32,435 nt of DNA from a virus. A program made the translations under genes and the position numbers. This document shows positions 18,825-29,659 of the stretch, piece by piece (the stretch's first letter is position 1; each line of letters starts with the position of its first letter). The notes beneath the pieces are model-generated. The model did not search any database. It worked only from the letters and a program-made list of their open reading frames with translations, and was not told the DNA's origin. The DNA is taken from positions 1 through 32,435 of IMG/VR virus record IMGVR_UViG_3300009100_000033. One strand, given 5' to 3'.

Positions 18825-19003
18825 CGCCGCTGGCCCGGGCGGAGATCACGCTGGCCAAGCGGCTAGTCGCCCTCGAACGCGAGCTGCCCGCTGATGGCGG
18901 CGACTCGCCGCGCTGGCCCGAATTCGTGGCCACGACCACGGCGCTGGTCGAGGTCCGCAAGCAACTGTACGGCGACGGCCCTCACCGACGCCGCAGTGCC
19001 TGA
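18821..19003 (+). CDS. Small helical protein, unknown
   Basis: A 60-residue protein: an Ala/Leu/Glu-rich helix (ARAEITLAKRLVALEREL), a short loop, a second helix (WPEFVATTTALVEVRKQLYG) and a basic tail. ATGA overlap with the ParB-like gene implies coupled translation. Its end overlaps the end of the convergent integrase gene by 22 bases. No family was recognised. Confidence 0.5.
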   Translation: MTPLARAEITLAKRLVALERELPADGGDSPRWPEFVATTTALVEVRKQLYGDGPHRRRSA

Positions 19004-20052
19004 TGCCGCGCCCCGCGATCCTGCAACTGGCGCAGGCGGTCGTTGCTGGCCGTCGCGTAGCGGTTGACCATCTTCGGGGTGGCCCAGCCGCCGAGCGCCT
19101 GGAGTTCGGGGAAGCTGGCGCCGTTGGCCAGCGCGGTCATGGCCGCGTGATGGCGGAGATCATGGAAGGTCACATCGTGTCGGCCCACGAGGTCCATGCT
19201 CTTCCGCCACATGTGGGAGACCTGTTTGCGGGAGTACGGCTGGCCGACCGACCGCGAGCGCGGGCCCGCCCGGCGTGGATCGCGGGGAAACACGACCTCG
19301 TGCACGTGCGAGGCGAGCACGTGGCGCAGGAGCGCACACGCCTCCTCGCCGAGCGAGACGACGCGCGGCCCCGCCTTGGCGCGCGGCAGCGTGATCGTCC
19401 GGGCGCGGAGGTCCACCATCTCCCGGCGCAGCGTGCGGATCTCGCCCTGCCGCATGAAGGTGATCTCGGCCAGCCGCGCCATGGTCGCGAACGGCTCGGG
19501 TGTGGCAAGATAGGCGCGCTTCAGTTCGGCGCGGGCCAGGACCCGGTGGCGCGTGTAGTTCGCATCGGGGAAGACCGAGGGGGGCAGATGGAACTCTGGA
19601 CGCAGGCGCCGGATCGCGGCGCGCAGCGTGCCCATGTGCGTGCGCAGCCCCGAGGGCTTCAGCCCCGCCGCCTCGTAGCGCCGCCGGAAGACCGCGCAGT
19701 GATCCGCCGTGACCGCTTCGAGGGGGAACCCCAGCAGCTCCGGGTAGCGCTTGCCGAGGACGCCCGTGGTGGAGCGCGCGTCCGCACTGGCGTGCAGTCG
19801 CAAGGCATCCTCCACGGTGGTCTCGGGCATCTCGGGCGTGGGCAGGGTCTCGGCCTCAGGCCGCGGCACGCCGCCGGCCAGCCACGCCTGCTTCGTGGCG
19901 ATCGCCTCGCCGAGGGTCTTGAAGAGCTTCGCGCGCCGGTTGCCCTTGCCGCGCCGGCCCATCTGCAGCAGGAAGCGCGGCTGCCCGCGCACCAGCACCT
20001 TCCGGATGTTCTTTTCGCCCGTGGGGCCCGTGTACTTGTCCTGTCCGCGCAT
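18982..20052 (-). CDS. int: Tyrosine recombinase integrase
   Basis: A 356-residue site-specific recombinase that would join phage and host attachment sites. The catalytic set can be read: Arg201 in FMRQGEIRTLRREM, Lys226 in the PRAKAGPR hairpin, His297 and Arg300 in FHDLRHH, Trp323 in LGGWATPKMVNRY replacing the more common His, and the nucleophile Tyr332. An N-terminal arm-binding region (1-60) and a SAM-like core-binding domain (about 78-150) precede it. The ATG has AGGAGG eight bases upstream. The gene points away from a repeat-rich gap (20053-20170) that is the natural place for attP. Strong evidence for a temperate phage. Confidence 0.92.
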   Translation of the reverse strand: MRGQDKYTGPTGEKNIRKVLVRGQPRFLLQMGRRGKGNRRAKLFKTLGEAIATKQAWLAGGVPRPEAETLPTPEMPETTVEDALRLHASADARSTTGVLGKRYPELLGFPLEAVTADHCAVFRRRYEAAGLKPSGLRTHMGTLRAAIRRLRPEFHLPPSVFPDANYTRHRVLARAELKRAYLATPEPFATMARLAEITFMRQGEIRTLRREMVDLRARTITLPRAKAGPRVVSLGEEACALLRHVLASHVHEVVFPRDPRRAGPRSRSVGQPYSRKQVSHMWRKSMDLVGRHDVTFHDLRHHAAMTALANGASFPELQALGGWATPKMVNRYATASNDRLRQLQDRGARHQALRRR

Positions 20053-20096
20053 CGTCGTGTCCTCCTGATCTCAAGCATACCGGGGCGCCAGATGAT

Positions 20097-20257
20097 TTGC
20101 ACAATGAATTGCACCGCGACCCCTGATTTGGACGGTGTCACCCGCGTAAGTATGTGAAACTCCGTCAGACATGGTGCAAACTCGCATGAGTGACCAAAAC
20201 GTGACTGAGGTTCAAAATCAGCTAGTTACTAGGGCCGATTTTGCACATGCTGTGCAC
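20097..20257. repeat. TTGCAC repeat cluster beside the integrase (candidate attP arm sites)
   Basis: TTGCAC occurs at 20097-20102, 20109-20114 and 20241-20246, its inverted copy GTGCAA at 20174-20179, and a related GTGCAC at 20252-20257. The first two are 12 bases apart in direct orientation. The region is AT-richer than its surroundings. Clustered short repeats upstream of an integrase suggest arm-type integrase or excisionase sites. Part of the cluster lies inside the start of the next gene. No core crossover sequence could be identified from the window alone. Confidence 0.4.
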
Positions 20258-20964: not shown

Positions 20965-21488
20965 GACACGCCGTTGGGTGCACCACCTGCCGGGACCGCT
21001 GGGCTCGCGAGGGCGCCGTCGGGCACTGCCCGCACGCGCAGATCGCGAGATGCGAGACGCACGGCCATGTCTGGGGCCGCGATGGGCGGTGCTTTTTCTG
21101 CCGGACACCGAGGACACCACGGAAACCGAGAGGAGCCCTTGCGATGAAGATCACGATCGTTCTCACCAAGGACACCGGCACGAAGATGTGGGACTTCGAG
21201 ATGAACTACTTCGACCTGCCGGAGCCCTACGCCTGGGCCGTCGCCGAGAAGGCGGCGAGCCTGGCGAGCTTCATCGAGGGTCTCAAGAAGAAGGCCGCCA
21301 GCGTGCAGCCGGGCGGCAAGGCCTATGCGGTGACGTTCAACTACGCGGGGGACGCGGCCGAGGGCGAGGCCAGCGCCCGCAATCTCTCCTACTCGCAGGC
21401 GGTCAAGGTGCAGCGCGCCGGCTGGCGGATGCTCGACCAGTTGATCGAGTCGGCCGAGACGGAGATCGCCTCGGGGCAGCGCGAGTGA
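20961..21488 (+). CDS. Zinc-finger N-terminus fused to unknown domain
   Basis: One 175-residue frame from the GTG at 20961 (GTGA overlap with the upstream stop). Residues 1-52 carry metal-binding pairs: CTTC, a CPH/CETH stretch and CFFC, a probable double zinc knuckle. The part from Met62 on is a separate alpha/beta domain (MKITIVLTKDTG, YFDLPEPYAWAVAEKAASLA, a long C-terminal helix). An in-frame ATG at 21144 has GAGAGGAG eight bases upstream, so the second domain may also be made alone. No stop separates the two parts, so the zinc part can only exist as a fusion. Function unknown. Confidence 0.6.
   Translation: MRHAVGCTTCRDRWAREGAVGHCPHAQIARCETHGHVWGRDGRCFFCRTPRTPRKPRGALAMKITIVLTKDTGTKMWDFEMNYFDLPEPYAWAVAEKAASLASFIEGLKKKAASVQPGGKAYAVTFNYAGDAAEGEASARNLSYSQAVKVQRAGWRMLDQLIESAETEIASGQRE
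21128..21135 (+). promoter_or_regulatory. Internal ribosome binding site (GAGAGGAG)
   Basis: A strong Shine-Dalgarno element eight bases before the in-frame ATG at 21144, inside the frame that starts at the 20961 GTG. It suggests a second, shorter 114-residue product without the zinc-binding region. Confidence 0.5.
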
Positions 21489-24040
21489 TGCGCCTCGCCC
21501 TCGCCCTGGTCCTCCTGCTGCTGGCCGGGCCGGCCGTCGCCGGCGAGTTTGGCCCGGTGCCGAAGGAGCACCAGCTCCCCGGCGTCGATCCGCGCGCGCC
21601 GTCGACCTACCTGGTCATGGTGATCCCGTCGACCAGCCAAGTCGGCACCTACTCGCGCGTGATGGAAGTCGAGCGCTTCCCCGCAGACACGGAGTTCGCG
21701 ACGACGTGGGAGTACCAGGGCGGGCGCGCGAATGTGGATTCGCTGAGCTTGACCGTGCTCCACCCGAGCGGCGCCACGACGACGCTGGGGCCGACGCTGA
21801 TCAGCGGCGCGCGGCGGGTCGTGTTCCGTCTCACGCTGCCGGCGGGCCGCTACGCGCTGGTGCCGTCGAAGAACCCGACCGGGCCGTCGGCGACCCAGCT
21901 CATGGAGCAGATCCTCGTCGGCGCGCCGCCGCCCACGGGCGCCTACTGGGCCTGCCGGACGCGCTTCGAACTCACGTTCGGCCAAGTCGGCTGGACGCCG
22001 TGCGCGCGGCTCGACGTGACCGAGTGGCCCCCGAAGATCCCGACGGTGCAGATGACCCTGCCCACGGGCCTGCAGCCCTTCGCGCAGCAGAAGTACGCCG
22101 CGCAGGACTGGGCGAAGCTCGCGTGGGTCTACGACCTTGGCACCTACTCCAAGGCCAAGCGCCATCTCGTCTCGCTGCCGAACCCCACCGAGACCACGGC
22201 CTTCGGGTGGTTCCCGACGTACTTCCACTCGAGCATGGACGGCCGGCGCATCGGCCTCACCGAGGGCGACCCGCCCCTCGCGAGGTTGGGTCATTTAGCC
22301 AAGGCCATCGTGCATCCGCAGGGGCGCGGGTTCTACACGCTCGAGATCCAGGGACGGCTCGGCCTGCTCGAGACCACGGGGCGCTACACGCCCTTCGTCG
22401 GGTACGGCGTCACCGACTCCGCGGTGCCGTACTACTCCGAACTCGTGGTCTCGCCGCTCGACGCGGACAAGGCCTACGCGCGCGAGCGGCAGCAGAACAT
22501 CGGCCAGTGGCAGGACGGCGCCAATCCCGTGATGCGGCGCGCCTGGGGCTTCACCGCGTGGCCCAGCGCGGCCCCGCACGCCGAGGGCCTCCACCAGTTC
22601 ATCATCGCCGACACGTTCAAGCACCGGCTGGTGTACGTCGACCACCGGCCGTCGCACACGCCGAGTTCGCGCGAGGGGCCGGGCACCGGGGCACCCGCCA
22701 CGGTGCGCCAGATCGCCGGCGAGTACGGCACCATCACGCGCCCGTGCTTCGACCATCCGTGGGACGTGGAGATGGACCATCACCGCCCCGTCTCGCCGAC
22801 GGTGAAGTGGATCTACTGGACGGTGCGCGGCGGCCAGCCCAGCATGACGGATCCCGCGGGCGTGCCGCGCGATCCGGGCAAGGGCCTGATCTGCCGCATG
22901 CGGATCAACCTCGACGACGGCTCGCCAGTCGGCGCCCCGGAGGTGTTCATCGAGTCCGCGTACGCGCAGGACTCCGAGGGCGAGATCGCGCGCGCCACGG
23001 GCGGCGAGTACTCGGCCGACGGCACGGGCAAGGTGCAGGCCGCCTACCCCACGCTCGGCGACTCGGGCAAGCCCGGCTTCATCCTGCCCAACGCGCTGGG
23101 CTTCTACTCCACGGGCGAACTCTGGTTCGTGGAGCAGTGCGCGGGCCGGTTGCGCCAGGTGGAGATCGAGTCGCGCGCCGTCACGACCATCGTGGGCCAC
23201 GATCAGGTGGACGCCACCAAGCGCCGCTGGCTCGGCAAGCCGCGCAACTGCTACGAGATCACCGCGCAGGCCGACGTCGAGGGCGTGCTGGGCCCGAAGG
23301 ACACGATCTACGGCGGCACCTACGCGGTGCAGGCCGACTTCGCGGTGCATCGCGACGGGAGCCAGCGCCGCATCCTGCCCTGGACCGGGATTAGCCCCCC
23401 GCCGGCCGACCTCGGCCCGGGGCCGATGCACCAGACGATCTCCGGCCTCGAGGGCAACTATCAGTGGGTCTACGCGCCGGGCAACGCGGCCCTGCCGTGC
23501 CTGCTGGCGTCGCAGCAGGCCAACATCGGCACGTTCCTCCTCTGCCGGCGCACGACGGGCCAGGGCAGCGTCGACCGCACGAAGCTCGAGGCCGGCTACC
23601 GCGCCTGGATCACGAGCACCGGCGGCAAGCCCGCGCCGGCCGTGCTCTGCTCGCGCGGCGGATTCAATGCCCTGCCGGCGATCTGCTTCCCGCAGCTCGG
23701 CACGTGGGACGAGCCGGTGGCCCTCGAGTACCTCAAGACGGTCTACGCCAAGACCGACGCCGATGCCGCAGCCATCCGGTACGTCGCCGTCGCGGCGATG
23801 CGGTACAAGCACGTGTCGGGCGGCGTGGGCAATCCGCCGCCGTCGATCACCTTCGGCGCCACGGTGAACTGGACCACGACGCACGCGACCGACTGTGCCC
23901 CGCACCCGACGAGCGGGAGCGCCGCCGTGCCCGTGCCGGGCGCGTTCTCCCTGACCTGTACGGGCCCCGGCGGCACGACGGAGCGCGGCGTCACGATCAC
24001 CTCGCCGCCCCCCGTGCAGCGGCAGCGGCTGAAGCGGTGA
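21488..24040 (+). CDS. Large secreted NHL-like beta-propeller protein
   Basis: An 850-residue protein with a clear Sec signal peptide: Arg2, a Leu/Ala/Val core (LALALVLLLLAG) and cleavage expected after the AVA ending at residue 18. The mature part is beta-rich. Residues about 355-640 contain NHL-like repeats (FIIADTFKHRLVYVD, then an IAGEYG / PWDVEMD unit; later LPNALGFYSTGELWFVEQ followed by LRQVEI and TTIVG). Residues about 783-842 form an Ig-like domain with the DCAP ... FSLTCTGPGG signature known from secreted bacterial proteins. About a dozen cysteines fit an oxidising compartment. The ATG overlaps the upstream TGA by one base. Phage virion proteins do not normally carry Sec signals, so a periplasmic or surface role during lysogeny or infection is inferred. 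Confidence 0.75.
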   Translation: MRLALALVLLLLAGPAVAGEFGPVPKEHQLPGVDPRAPSTYLVMVIPSTSQVGTYSRVMEVERFPADTEFATTWEYQGGRANVDSLSLTVLHPSGATTTLGPTLISGARRVVFRLTLPAGRYALVPSKNPTGPSATQLMEQILVGAPPPTGAYWACRTRFELTFGQVGWTPCARLDVTEWPPKIPTVQMTLPTGLQPFAQQKYAAQDWAKLAWVYDLGTYSKAKRHLVSLPNPTETTAFGWFPTYFHSSMDGRRIGLTEGDPPLARLGHLAKAIVHPQGRGFYTLEIQGRLGLLETTGRYTPFVGYGVTDSAVPYYSELVVSPLDADKAYARERQQNIGQWQDGANPVMRRAWGFTAWPSAAPHAEGLHQFIIADTFKHRLVYVDHRPSHTPSSREGPGTGAPATVRQIAGEYGTITRPCFDHPWDVEMDHHRPVSPTVKWIYWTVRGGQPSMTDPAGVPRDPGKGLICRMRINLDDGSPVGAPEVFIESAYAQDSEGEIARATGGEYSADGTGKVQAAYPTLGDSGKPGFILPNALGFYSTGELWFVEQCAGRLRQVEIESRAVTTIVGHDQVDATKRRWLGKPRNCYEITAQADVEGVLGPKDTIYGGTYAVQADFAVHRDGSQRRILPWTGISPPPADLGPGPMHQTISGLEGNYQWVYAPGNAALPCLLASQQANIGTFLLCRRTTGQGSVDRTKLEAGYRAWITSTGGKPAPAVLCSRGGFNALPAICFPQLGTWDEPVALEYLKTVYAKTDADAAAIRYVAVAAMRYKHVSGGVGNPPPSITFGATVNWTTTHATDCAPHPTSGSAAVPVPGAFSLTCTGPGGTTERGVTITSPPPVQRQRLKR
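24024..24040 (+). repeat. 17-bp direct repeat, copy 1
   Basis: AGCGGCTGAAGCGGTGA forms the last codons and stop of the secreted propeller gene. An identical copy, 257 bases further on, ends the HTH gene at 24281-24297. Both genes therefore end in the same residues (RLKR) and both copies create a GTGA stop/start context. Confidence 0.7.
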
Positions 24041-26571: not shown

Positions 26572-27567
26572 ATGGCACTGGAGACCGTACCACCATCACG
26601 CCCGGCCCTGCAAGCGCCGGAGACGAGGCCCCGGATGCACGTCAGACTTGTGGATGTCGATGACGCGGACTGGCGCTCGGCCCGCCGCACCGGCATCGGC
26701 TCCTCCGATGCCCCGGCCATCGTGGAGGCGCTGCCCGCCACGTGGGCCCGCGGCCCCCTCGAGGTCTATCTGGAGAAGATCGGCGAGGCCCCTGACAAAC
26801 CCAGCAGCATCGCCATGCGGCGCGGCACCCTGCTCGAGCCGCTGGTGGCCCAGCTCTACGGCGAGGCGCACCCGCTGCGCACCGTGTCCGACCCGGACGG
26901 GCGCATGTTCCGGTCGCGCACCGAGCCGCATCTGCTCGCCAGCCCCGACCGCTGGATCGAGGATCCGGTGCGCGGGCTGGGCCTGCTCGAGCTGAAGACC
27001 TCCAGCGTGTGGGCGGCCGAGCACTGGCAGGGCGCCGCGCCCCCGCTCCATGTCCTCGTACAAGTCCAGCATCAACTGCTCGTCCTGGGCGCCTCCTGGG
27101 CGGCCGTCGCCGTCCTGATCGGGGACGACCCGATCCTCACGTGGGACGTCGAGCGAAACGAGGACTTCCTGGCCGCCTATCTCGAGCGCACCCGCGCCTT
27201 CTGGGCGTGCGTCCAGCGCCGGGAGCCCCCGGAGGCCGGCGCCGCGTCCCTCGACACCTTGCGGCGGCTCTACCCGACCGTCGAGCCCGCCACCATTGAT
27301 CTGCCGCCCGAGGCCACCCACTGGCACCGCGAGCGCCTCGAGGGCGACACCTTGGAGAAGCGCGGCAAGGCGATGCGCGAGGCGGCCACGGCCAAGCTCC
27401 TAGCCGCACTGGGCCCGGCCGAGGTCGGCCGCCTGCCCGGCGTGGACCTCTCCTACGTGCGCACCGTCGTGGACCGCGACTCCTACGTGGTCAAGGCCAC
27501 GTCCTACGTCAAGCTCAGCACGCGCACGGCCCGGTTGCCGCGACGCGACAAAGGAACCGCCGCATGA
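26572..27567 (+). CDS. YqaJ-type viral recombinase exonuclease
   Basis: A 331-residue 5'-3' exonuclease of the YqaJ/lambda-Exo group, which resects double-strand ends for annealing. The signatures are in order: RRTGIGSSDAPAI (39-50), MRRGTLLEPLVAQLYG with Glu89, LASPDRW with Asp126, LLELKTS with Glu140 and Lys142 (the D...ExK core), and VQVQHQLLVLG (163-173), in which Gln167-type residues are conserved. The C-terminal third is helical. The ATG lies 30 bases behind a strong hairpin; AAGGA is rather far from it (about 13 bases), so expression may be modest. Coupled by ATGA to the annealing gene. Confidence 0.88.
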   Translation: MALETVPPSRPALQAPETRPRMHVRLVDVDDADWRSARRTGIGSSDAPAIVEALPATWARGPLEVYLEKIGEAPDKPSSIAMRRGTLLEPLVAQLYGEAHPLRTVSDPDGRMFRSRTEPHLLASPDRWIEDPVRGLGLLELKTSSVWAAEHWQGAAPPLHVLVQVQHQLLVLGASWAAVAVLIGDDPILTWDVERNEDFLAAYLERTRAFWACVQRREPPEAGAASLDTLRRLYPTVEPATIDLPPEATHWHRERLEGDTLEKRGKAMREAATAKLLAALGPAEVGRLPGVDLSYVRTVVDRDSYVVKATSYVKLSTRTARLPRRDKGTAA

Positions 27568-28559
27568 GTGTCAAGGAAGCGAGGGAACAGATGAGCGACC
27601 ACATGGCGCTGGTGCGACAGAAGCGGCCCGTCGGGCTCGAGGTGCGCGGGCTCGACGAGTACATGCGGCTGGCCGACGTGATGGCCCATTCCGAATTGGT
27701 GCCGGCCGCCTATCGCGGCAAGCCCGCCGACATCCTGCTCGCCATGGGCATGGGGGCCGAGCTGGGCTTCGGCCCCATGCAGTCGCTGCAGGCCATCTAT
27801 GTGGTGGGGGGCCGCCCGAGCCTCTACGTGGAGGCGGCGATTGCCGTGGTGCGCGCTTCGGGCGAACTCGAGTCGCTCCGGGTCGAGGGCACCGACGAGG
27901 AGGCCACGGCGGCGGCCACCCGGCGCGGCCAGGGGACCATGTCCGTGACCTTCAGCTTCCGGGAGGCCGAGCGCTTGGGCCTCGTGAAGTCCGGGGGGCC
28001 GTGGCACACGCAGCGCGGCTGGATGCTGCAGACGCGGGCCATCGGGCGCGTCCTGCACCGGCTCTTCCCCGACCTCCTGCGCGGCGTCGGCATGGTGGAT
28101 CCCTCGGGGCGCCCCGTCGAGCAGGGCGAGGCCTTCGGCGGGAGTTCCGCCGTCGATCCCGCCACGGGCGAGATCAGCGAGTCCGCGCCGCCGATTGCCG
28201 GCGGCACCGATCCCCTCGCCGAGCTGACGTCGCGGCTCACCGCACGCACCCCGGAGCGCCCGCGGCCGCCCGAGCCCGAGCCGCCCGTCGAGGACGAGCC
28301 CGAGGACGAGGACGAGACGCCCGAGCGGCCCCCGCAGGAGGCCGCCACGGCGCCCGTGTCGGAGACCGCGCTCTTAATGAAGCGCAGCATCGTGCTCGCC
28401 AAGCGCACCAACATGAAGTTGACCGATACCGACTGGATGCGCCTGGTGCGCGAGCACTGCGGCGTCCGGTCCTTTCAGGACGCGACCGTGGCCGGACTCG
28501 AAGCCCTCGACCGGGCGCTCACCGCCCGGAGCGCCCCGCGAGCCCCCCGCTTGGGATAA
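27564..28559 (+). CDS. RecT-like single-strand annealing protein
   Basis: A 331-residue protein of the RecT/Red-beta superfamily, partner of the exonuclease. The key block is residues about 55-95: PADILLAMGMGAELGFGPMQ, then SLQAIYVVGGRPSLYVEA, where family members read 'A...G.ELG..P..A...I.vi.GK......'. After the core (to about residue 190) comes an acidic, Pro-rich linker (EPEPPVEDEPEDEDETPE) and a small helical C-terminal domain that may contact single-strand-binding protein or DNA. AAAGGA lies eight bases before the ATG. Its stop overlaps the next frame in a way that leaves that gene without an ordinary start. Confidence 0.8.
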   Translation: MSVKEAREQMSDHMALVRQKRPVGLEVRGLDEYMRLADVMAHSELVPAAYRGKPADILLAMGMGAELGFGPMQSLQAIYVVGGRPSLYVEAAIAVVRASGELESLRVEGTDEEATAAATRRGQGTMSVTFSFREAERLGLVKSGGPWHTQRGWMLQTRAIGRVLHRLFPDLLRGVGMVDPSGRPVEQGEAFGGSSAVDPATGEISESAPPIAGGTDPLAELTSRLTARTPERPRPPEPEPPVEDEPEDEDETPERPPQEAATAPVSETALLMKRSIVLAKRTNMKLTDTDWMRLVREHCGVRSFQDATVAGLEALDRALTARSAPRAPRLG

Positions 28560-28840
28560 AGAACGCCAAGGGCAAGGGCCGGCGCGCGGAGTGGAAGAGC
28601 CGCGACATCTTCCTCGCCGCCGGCTACGATGTCGTGCGGGCCGGGGCCTCCCTCGGCCCGTGGGACTTGGTGTGCCTGTGCCCGACCGGGGGCGTGCTCG
28701 TCCAGGTCAAGTGTAACGACTGGCCGGGCACCCTTGAGCGCCTCGCGTTGCAGGACTTCGTGGCCCCGCCCCACTTCCGCAAGGTCATTCATCGCTGGCG
28801 CGACCGCCATCGCACCCCCGATGAGCAGTGGCTCCAGTGA
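28556..28840 (+). CDS. PD-(D/E)XK nuclease, Holliday-junction-resolvase-like, with no ordinary start
   Basis: A compact nuclease of about 94 residues with the complete core: Glu12 in GRRAEWKS, Asp37 in SLGPWDLV, Gln50-Val-Lys52 in VLVQVKCN, followed by WPG, a helix and HRWRDR, a pattern known from phage PD-(D/E)XK proteins (GRR.E......L...GY.V.R...SLG.WD...). The domain must begin near position 28560, yet no ATG, GTG or TTG lies in frame between about 28001 and 28630. The candidates are an AUA at 28556, which overlaps the RecT TAA exactly as ATGA pairs do elsewhere, or a -1 frameshift on the CCCCCC run at 28543-28548 giving a RecT-nuclease fusion. Coordinates assume AUA. Confidence 0.7.
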   Translation: MKNAKGKGRRAEWKSRDIFLAAGYDVVRAGASLGPWDLVCLCPTGGVLVQVKCNDWPGTLERLALQDFVAPPHFRKVIHRWRDRHRTPDEQWLQ

Positions 28841-28861
28841 CTCACGATGGAGAGTGCCCGT

Positions 28862-29659
28862 ATGGCCTGGGCTCGGATCGATGACAACATGCCCGATCAC
28901 CCCAAGCTGGCCCGTCTCGGCCTGCTGCGCCCGCTCGCCGGCTGGCTGCACGTGTGCGGCATCTGTTACGCCACCCGGTACCTCACCGACGGCTTCATCC
29001 CCGCCGGCCAGGTCGTCGCGCTCACCCGGTTCGATCACGTCGGCTACGAGACCGGCGGCGTCCCCGGCATGTTCAGCGTGGGCGAAGATGCCGACCCGCT
29101 GACCCTGGCCGAGGCCCTCGTGAGCGTCGGCATGTGGCATCACGCGCGGGGCGGATATCTCATTCATGACTTCCTCGACTACAATCCCGCGCGCGATGTA
29201 ACACTCAAACGGCGGGCCGAAACGGCCGCGAGAGTGAAGGAACACCGTGAACGTAAGCTCGCGAATCTTCAGGCTTCACGTGAAAGTAACGGTGTTACTA
29301 ACGCGTTAGTAACCGCGTCCCCTACCCCTACCCCTATAAAAGCTTTTAAGAGTTCTTCGAACTCTTTGGTCGAGTCGAACTCGACCGGTGTGGATCCGGC
29401 GGTCGAGATTCTCGAGTTTCTGAACCGCAAGTGCGACCGCCGCTACCGGCCGGTGCGCGCCACGCTGGACTTGATCCGCGCCCGCCTGCGCTCCGGCGCC
29501 ACCGTGACCCAGGTCAAGGCGGTCATCGTCGTCAAGCGCCGCGAGTGGGCCGAGAAGCCCGACATGGCGCCCTACCTCCGCCCGTCCACGCTCTTTCGCG
29601 CCTCGAACTTCGAGACCTACCTCGGCCAGCTCCCGGCCTCCGCCTTCGAGGAACTCTGA
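28862..29659 (+). CDS. Replication initiator with Phg_2220_C-like domain
   Basis: A protein of 265 residues with two domains. The N-terminal one (1-115) opens with MAWARIDDNMPDHPKLARLG, typical of phage replisome organisers, and includes a winged-helix-like region ending in FLDYNPA. The C-terminal one (about 180-262) reads EILEFLNRKCDRRYRPVRA ... LIRARLRSG ... KRREWAEKPDM..YLRPSTLFR..NFETYLGQ, matching the conserved phage C-terminal domain Phg_2220_C. Between them lies a Ser/Thr/Asn-rich linker whose DNA is AT-rich and full of palindromes, a candidate origin. The ATG at 28862 is preferred (GGAGAG seven bases upstream) over one at 28847. Confidence 0.82.
   Translation: MAWARIDDNMPDHPKLARLGLLRPLAGWLHVCGICYATRYLTDGFIPAGQVVALTRFDHVGYETGGVPGMFSVGEDADPLTLAEALVSVGMWHHARGGYLIHDFLDYNPARDVTLKRRAETAARVKEHRERKLANLQASRESNGVTNALVTASPTPTPIKAFKSSSNSLVESNSTGVDPAVEILEFLNRKCDRRYRPVRATLDLIRARLRSGATVTQVKAVIVVKRREWAEKPDMAPYLRPSTLFRASNFETYLGQLPASAFEEL
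29275..29386. other. Candidate phage replication origin inside the initiator gene
   Basis: Within 112 bases, in an AT-rich island, lie: TTCACGTGAA (29275-29284); AGTAAC with its inverse GTTACT (29285-29299); a perfect 20-bp palindrome GTTACTAACGCGTTAGTAAC (29294-29313); three tandem CCCCTA units (29319-29336); TAAAAGCTTTTA (29337-29348); AAGAGTTC paired with GAACTCTT (29348-29366); and GGTCGAGT paired with ACTCGACC (29368-29386). They encode only the flexible linker of the initiator. In lambda the origin lies inside gene O in the same way. The origin role is inferred from this analogy. Confidence 0.6.

Follow-up and report, generated by a model that had tools for sequence, protein, structure and literature searches.

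A small nuclease gene directly follows the gene for a RecT-like single-stranded DNA annealing protein in the viral contig analysed here (IMG/VR record IMGVR_UViG_3300009100_000033; the whole stretch of 32,435 nucleotides is referred to as the window). The two genes overlap by the four nucleotides ATAA (28556–28559, plus strand), with an AUA at the start position of the nuclease and the TAA stop codon of RecT sharing its last two bases. As sequenced, the nuclease gene is probably genuine but weakly started, or has lost its start; it is probably not half of a frameshift fusion. The preferred reading, to which we assign a probability of roughly 0.58, is that the nuclease gene is independent and that the AUA is the true allele, initiating at a low rate by termination-reinitiation. 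The existence of the gene and its start position at 28556 are secure; initiation at the AUA and a low level of the nuclease are inferred.

The nuclease is the third gene of a recombination cassette on the plus strand, in the order YqaJ exonuclease, RecT, Hjc-like nuclease and replication initiator. The YqaJ/RecE-like exonuclease (26572–27567; Pfam YqaJ, E = 2e-18; PHROG 434, E = 1.5e-62) overlaps RecT by ATGA. RecT (27564–28559; PHROG 561, E = 1e-33; PHROG 4171, E = 1e-24) has an ATG start and a codon-usage score of 329, and its 3′ end reads TTG GGA TAA. The nuclease (28556–28840) has 94 residues and ends with TGA at 28838–28840. It is followed by a replication initiation-like protein with a Phg_2220_C domain (28847–29659; Pfam, E = 5e-22; PHROG 2447, E = 1.6e-26). 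A tyrosine integrase (18982–20052; Phage_integrase, E = 5e-23) is located on the minus strand, opposite to most other genes, and a plus-strand open reading frame overlapping it (19003–20157) is probably not a gene. Tail tubular proteins and internal virion proteins of the T7-like type are also encoded, and their occurrence in one phage with the integrase suggests a temperate podovirus. The first gene (1–905) is truncated at the edge of the contig. Since sister contigs reach up to about 5 kb further to the left, the genome of the phage must measure about 37 kb or more.

The nuclease gene is real, as judged from coding statistics based on codon usage. Other genes of the window served as the training set for codon usage, and no constraint was placed on the left edge of the coding stretch. 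The best-scoring stretch is 28559–28840 (92.5 bits), opening at the codon directly after the ATA (28556–28558, in the nuclease frame). In the sliding score, the nuclease frame takes over from that of RecT within about 28523–28556, and the RecT signal ends in the same 40 bases. Before 28530, the nuclease frame (the −1 frame of RecT) scores strongly negative for coding.

As the original prediction had stated, no usual start codon is present in this frame for a long distance upstream or before the catalytic Glu. There is no ATG, GTG or TTG between a GTG at 28001, inside RecT and 185 codons upstream, and a GTG at 28634–28636, which corresponds to residue 27 and is located 3′ of the conserved Glu12 (28589). 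The near-cognate codons between these two are CTG 28019, CTG 28433, CTG 28457, ATA 28556 and ATC 28607. The upstream absence is weak evidence by itself, because in the −1 frame of genes in this window, at 70% GC, stops make up only 0.5% of codons and starts only 1.0%; the chance of 184 start-free codons in this frame is about 14%. An automatic gene caller would choose one of the two GTG codons or skip the nuclease, since they are the only usual in-frame starts. Translation from either of them, giving 68 residues from GTG 28634 or 279 residues from GTG 28001, is nonetheless extremely unlikely. The downstream GTG would remove helix 1 and the conserved Glu12, and the coding signal from this position is 57.8 bits, a loss of 35 bits. 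The upstream GTG would require 555 nucleotides to be read out of frame within RecT, where the coding score is negative. Readthrough of the RecT stop codon was also considered and rejected, as it leads into the wrong frame.

The nuclease protein alone gave no significant match in library scans, Pfam included, and direct scans of viral contigs with the nuclease or RecT gave no matches. The family was found instead with a degenerate DNA pattern of its motif (GR..E, G[FY].V.R, S.G..D), which returned 60 viral loci with clear full-length relatives of the nuclease. Among 35 aligned relatives, 30 match Pfam Hjc (PF01870), with a best E value of 2e-9, and the family profile finds the solved Hjc structure 1gef in the Protein Data Bank (E = 1e-13). 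A further nuclease scan added no relatives, and scanning 398 sampled Pseudomonadota genomes gave three weak matches. Two other candidates, a tblastn match in phage MT835696 and a single match in a scan of genome contigs (L010), are both spurious, being antisense to another gene.

The AlphaFold2 model of the nuclease translated from the AUA has a mean pLDDT of 92, with helix 1 beginning at residue 2. Its best PDB matches in Foldseek are Hjc resolvases, with TM scores of 0.78–0.80 for 1gef. The matches for this model (28556–28837) also include the SPARDA effector nucleases 9qcc and 9jt2 (query-normalised TM scores of 0.74–0.78) and the homing endonuclease I-Ssp6803I (2ost). The conserved residues are Glu12 (28589), Asp37 (28664) and Gln50-Val-Lys52 (28703–28711). 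Glu12 and Asp37 are invariant in the family alignment and Lys52 is nearly so. The acidic position before xK is occupied by Gln50 in the nuclease (VQVK), and by Gln or Ser in its relatives.

On the basis of these alignments, the PDB profile search, the model and the coding signal, the window protein is identified as a small Hjc-type PD-(D/E)XK nuclease. It resembles the archaeal-type Hjc enzymes (PF01870; 1gef, 2wcw, 1hh1) and their phage relatives in size and fold, and shares with Hjc the N-terminal Glu, the Asp of the PD motif and the lysine of xxK. In comparison with Hjc, the second acidic residue is replaced, by Gln in the nuclease and by Ser in the closest subfamily; the protein is shorter (94 residues, compared to about 120–140), its sequence alone falls below a Pfam Hjc match, and its resolvase role is a prediction. 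The complete PD-(D/E)XK domain that had been proposed to begin at the RecT stop is complete in its fold, but its third catalytic position is Gln rather than Asp or Glu. Nuclease activity is likely rather than certain, because of this Gln at the residue before xK. The predicted nuclease would cut branched recombination intermediates.

The start codons of the relatives support the start position at the AUA. A usual in-frame start is present in all 61 distinct relatives. It is located 6–11 codons before the GR motif in about 51 of them and further upstream, in an N-terminal extension, in about 10. The AUA is at −7 relative to this motif. Among close relatives, the start overlaps the upstream gene as TGATG in three (L071, L075, L077), as TTGA in two (L073, L079) and as ATGA in three (L078, L057, L087). 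Counted from GRRAE, the starts of relatives lie 6–8 codons ahead, often at an overlap of one of these three types. These observations agree with the original prediction that the AUA occupies the place of an overlapping start. One branch of the Hjc-like family (L015, L016, L035, L038, L041, L043, L056, L062 and L066) has a conserved N-terminal extension before the GR motif, ending in a pattern like KKKQSQYSL. The Hjc-like domain of L031/L076 lies in a longer open frame, whose ATG is 146 codons upstream, possibly a natural fusion to another domain.

The junctions of the window itself show a similar pattern. In a hand-made gene list, 17 of 35 junctions are four-nucleotide overlaps, 16 of the type NTGA and a single ATAA. 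Together with the overlapping starts of the relatives, this argues that ATAA holds the place of ATGA, and from sequence comparison it is read as ATGA with one G-to-A change. In an NTGA overlap the start and the stop share the G, and no base other than A can replace it without destroying the stop (A gives TAA). As had been predicted, the AUA at 28556 overlaps the TAA of RecT on the same strand by four nucleotides, as in a coupled stop/start overlap. Its codon is AUA instead of AUG, GUG or UUG, and the junction can therefore be said only to work like a coupled overlap. No conservation of the AUA was seen in near relatives. Normal starts in related phages, which the original prediction had named as evidence against it, are found across the family in general, but the contigs nearly identical to the window end before the junction.

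A fusion of RecT and the nuclease, by slippage into the −1 frame on a run of six C, had been proposed as an alternative. Such slippage could be either programmed frameshifting in translation or an event of transcription. The run is present where it had been placed, at 28543–28548, just 5′ of the RecT stop, and the −1 frame is open from there into the nuclease. Programmed −1 frameshifting, as in the tail assembly chaperones of phages, shares with the RecT end a homopolymer run near the stop and an open −1 frame. In contrast to such systems, there is no slippery heptamer, no stimulating structure and no conserved fusion at the RecT end. The RecT codons here are GCC CCC CGC, which contain no X_XXY_YYZ heptamer, and only the P-site tRNA-Pro could slip. 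The downstream RNA fold is ordinary (z = −1.02), with an equally good fold in 31 of 200 shuffled sequences, and the −1 frame has the negative coding score upstream of 28530 described above. No fusion of RecT and nuclease was found in relatives. Of 80 loci with RecT relatives, not one carries an Hjc-like gene up to a distance of about 2.5 kb, although the same HMM finds the one in the window; an alignment of six RecT sequences was too diverse to serve as a search query. Moreover, the relatives of the nuclease are located behind genes other than RecT, each with its own start. A fusion is thus very improbable, and the proposal is not upheld.

Three sister contigs from other metagenomes, found through a tail protein, are 99.92–99.99% identical to the window, but stop at window positions 20115, 16643 and 10210, short of the junction. 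Their divergence from the window is about 4 bases per 10,000, with no indels in 47 kb aligned. The window carries four private substitutions in 20 kb relative to every sister contig covering the position, all of them A or T in the window. A private G-to-A change at 28558 is plausible on account of these differences. The phage may then normally have ATGA at the junction, with the A as a private polymorphism, a minority allele or a sequence or assembly error, in which case a role of the AUA is not established. This alternative is unlikely, though appreciable. ATAA is one transition away from the expected ATGA, the private differences share its direction, and IMG/VR contigs are consensus assemblies. 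On the other hand, three of the four private differences either are silent or fall between genes, for which reason they look like real polymorphism rather than error, and the alignments are free of indels. A change hitting precisely this base has a chance of about 1 in 10,000; AUA starts are similarly rare, so this comparison favours neither side.

Initiation at AUA has precedents in bacteria. In S. aureus, infC, ccpN and citZ start at AUA; in reporter assays in poor medium, the ccpN and citZ sites reach about 10% of what AUG gives, and in rich medium ccpN attains up to 30% (PMC13009471). In Listeria, an ATG-to-ATA change in rsbW, which overlaps rsbV, leaves translation reduced yet detectable (PMC13068326), and an ATG-to-ATA allele of rpoS in E. 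coli O104:H4 gives less RpoS (PMC12864459). The nuclease resembles the S. aureus genes in having AUA at its start position, the rpoS allele in the single change from ATG to ATA, and rsbW in both this change and the overlap with the preceding gene. It differs from these bacterial genes in belonging to a phage, in the fusion of its start to the upstream stop (four nucleotides), in having no evident Shine-Dalgarno sequence, and in that the use of the AUA is putative. Among 61,358 reconstructed AUG starts, no fixed AUG-to-AUA changes were reported, a result in which annotation bias is likely (PMC5622118).

Termination-reinitiation at overlapping stop and start codons is established in bacteria and archaea (PMC6728339). 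The nuclease junction is similar to the ATGA and TGATG overlaps of that study in its four-nucleotide overlap, its co-directed genes and the relation of their frames; in contrast, it is AUAA and not NUGA, with UAA as the stop and AUA as the start. Shine-Dalgarno pairing upstream of the AUA is −2.2 kcal/mol, among the weakest for starts in the window, and low nuclease expression is therefore predicted. The S. aureus infC, cvfC1 and ccpN genes depend on extended Shine-Dalgarno sequences (PMC13009471), and the effect of losing the Shine-Dalgarno sequence at overlapping pairs varies (PMC6728339). A search of the window for a tRNA that might favour AUA found only one call, for tRNA-Gln. This ARAGORN call (21851–21942, minus strand) lies antisense inside a large coding gene (21485–24040) and is probably a false positive.

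An AUA with no Shine-Dalgarno sequence is a poor start, and the start may have been lost recently, leaving the nuclease silent and facing decay. This is improbable, as the open reading frame is intact, with the conserved residues of the family and the codon bias of the window throughout, and AUA is measurably functional in other systems.

Under the preferred reading, the junction would be an ordinary two-gene overlap of a phage recombination cassette, with an independent nuclease starting at 28556. One transition would have turned the ATGA overlap into ATAA, changing the AUG of the nuclease to AUA and the UGA of RecT to UAA. Only the downstream start would be weakened, since the same transition leaves RecT a stop codon. 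Ribosomes would terminate at this UAA and begin again at the overlapping AUA, using fMet-tRNA, and nuclease output would be low. It is possible, though we hold this only tentatively, that the AUA is a fixed functional start in the lineage, a one-base trim that keeps the ratio of nuclease to RecT low through termination-reinitiation.

Because bacteria are known to use AUA starts, the novelty is modest; the AUAA overlap is the twist here. If the change is a private variant, it is a warning against treating the start codons of single contigs as biology. If the AUA does initiate, gene callers limited to ATG, GTG and TTG would miss such genes or cut them short (here by 26 residues at the N-terminus), and AUAA overlaps would be a simple class to seek across phages. 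As A alone can replace the shared G and spare the stop, ATAA is a built-in route for weakening a coupled gene while its partner stays intact.
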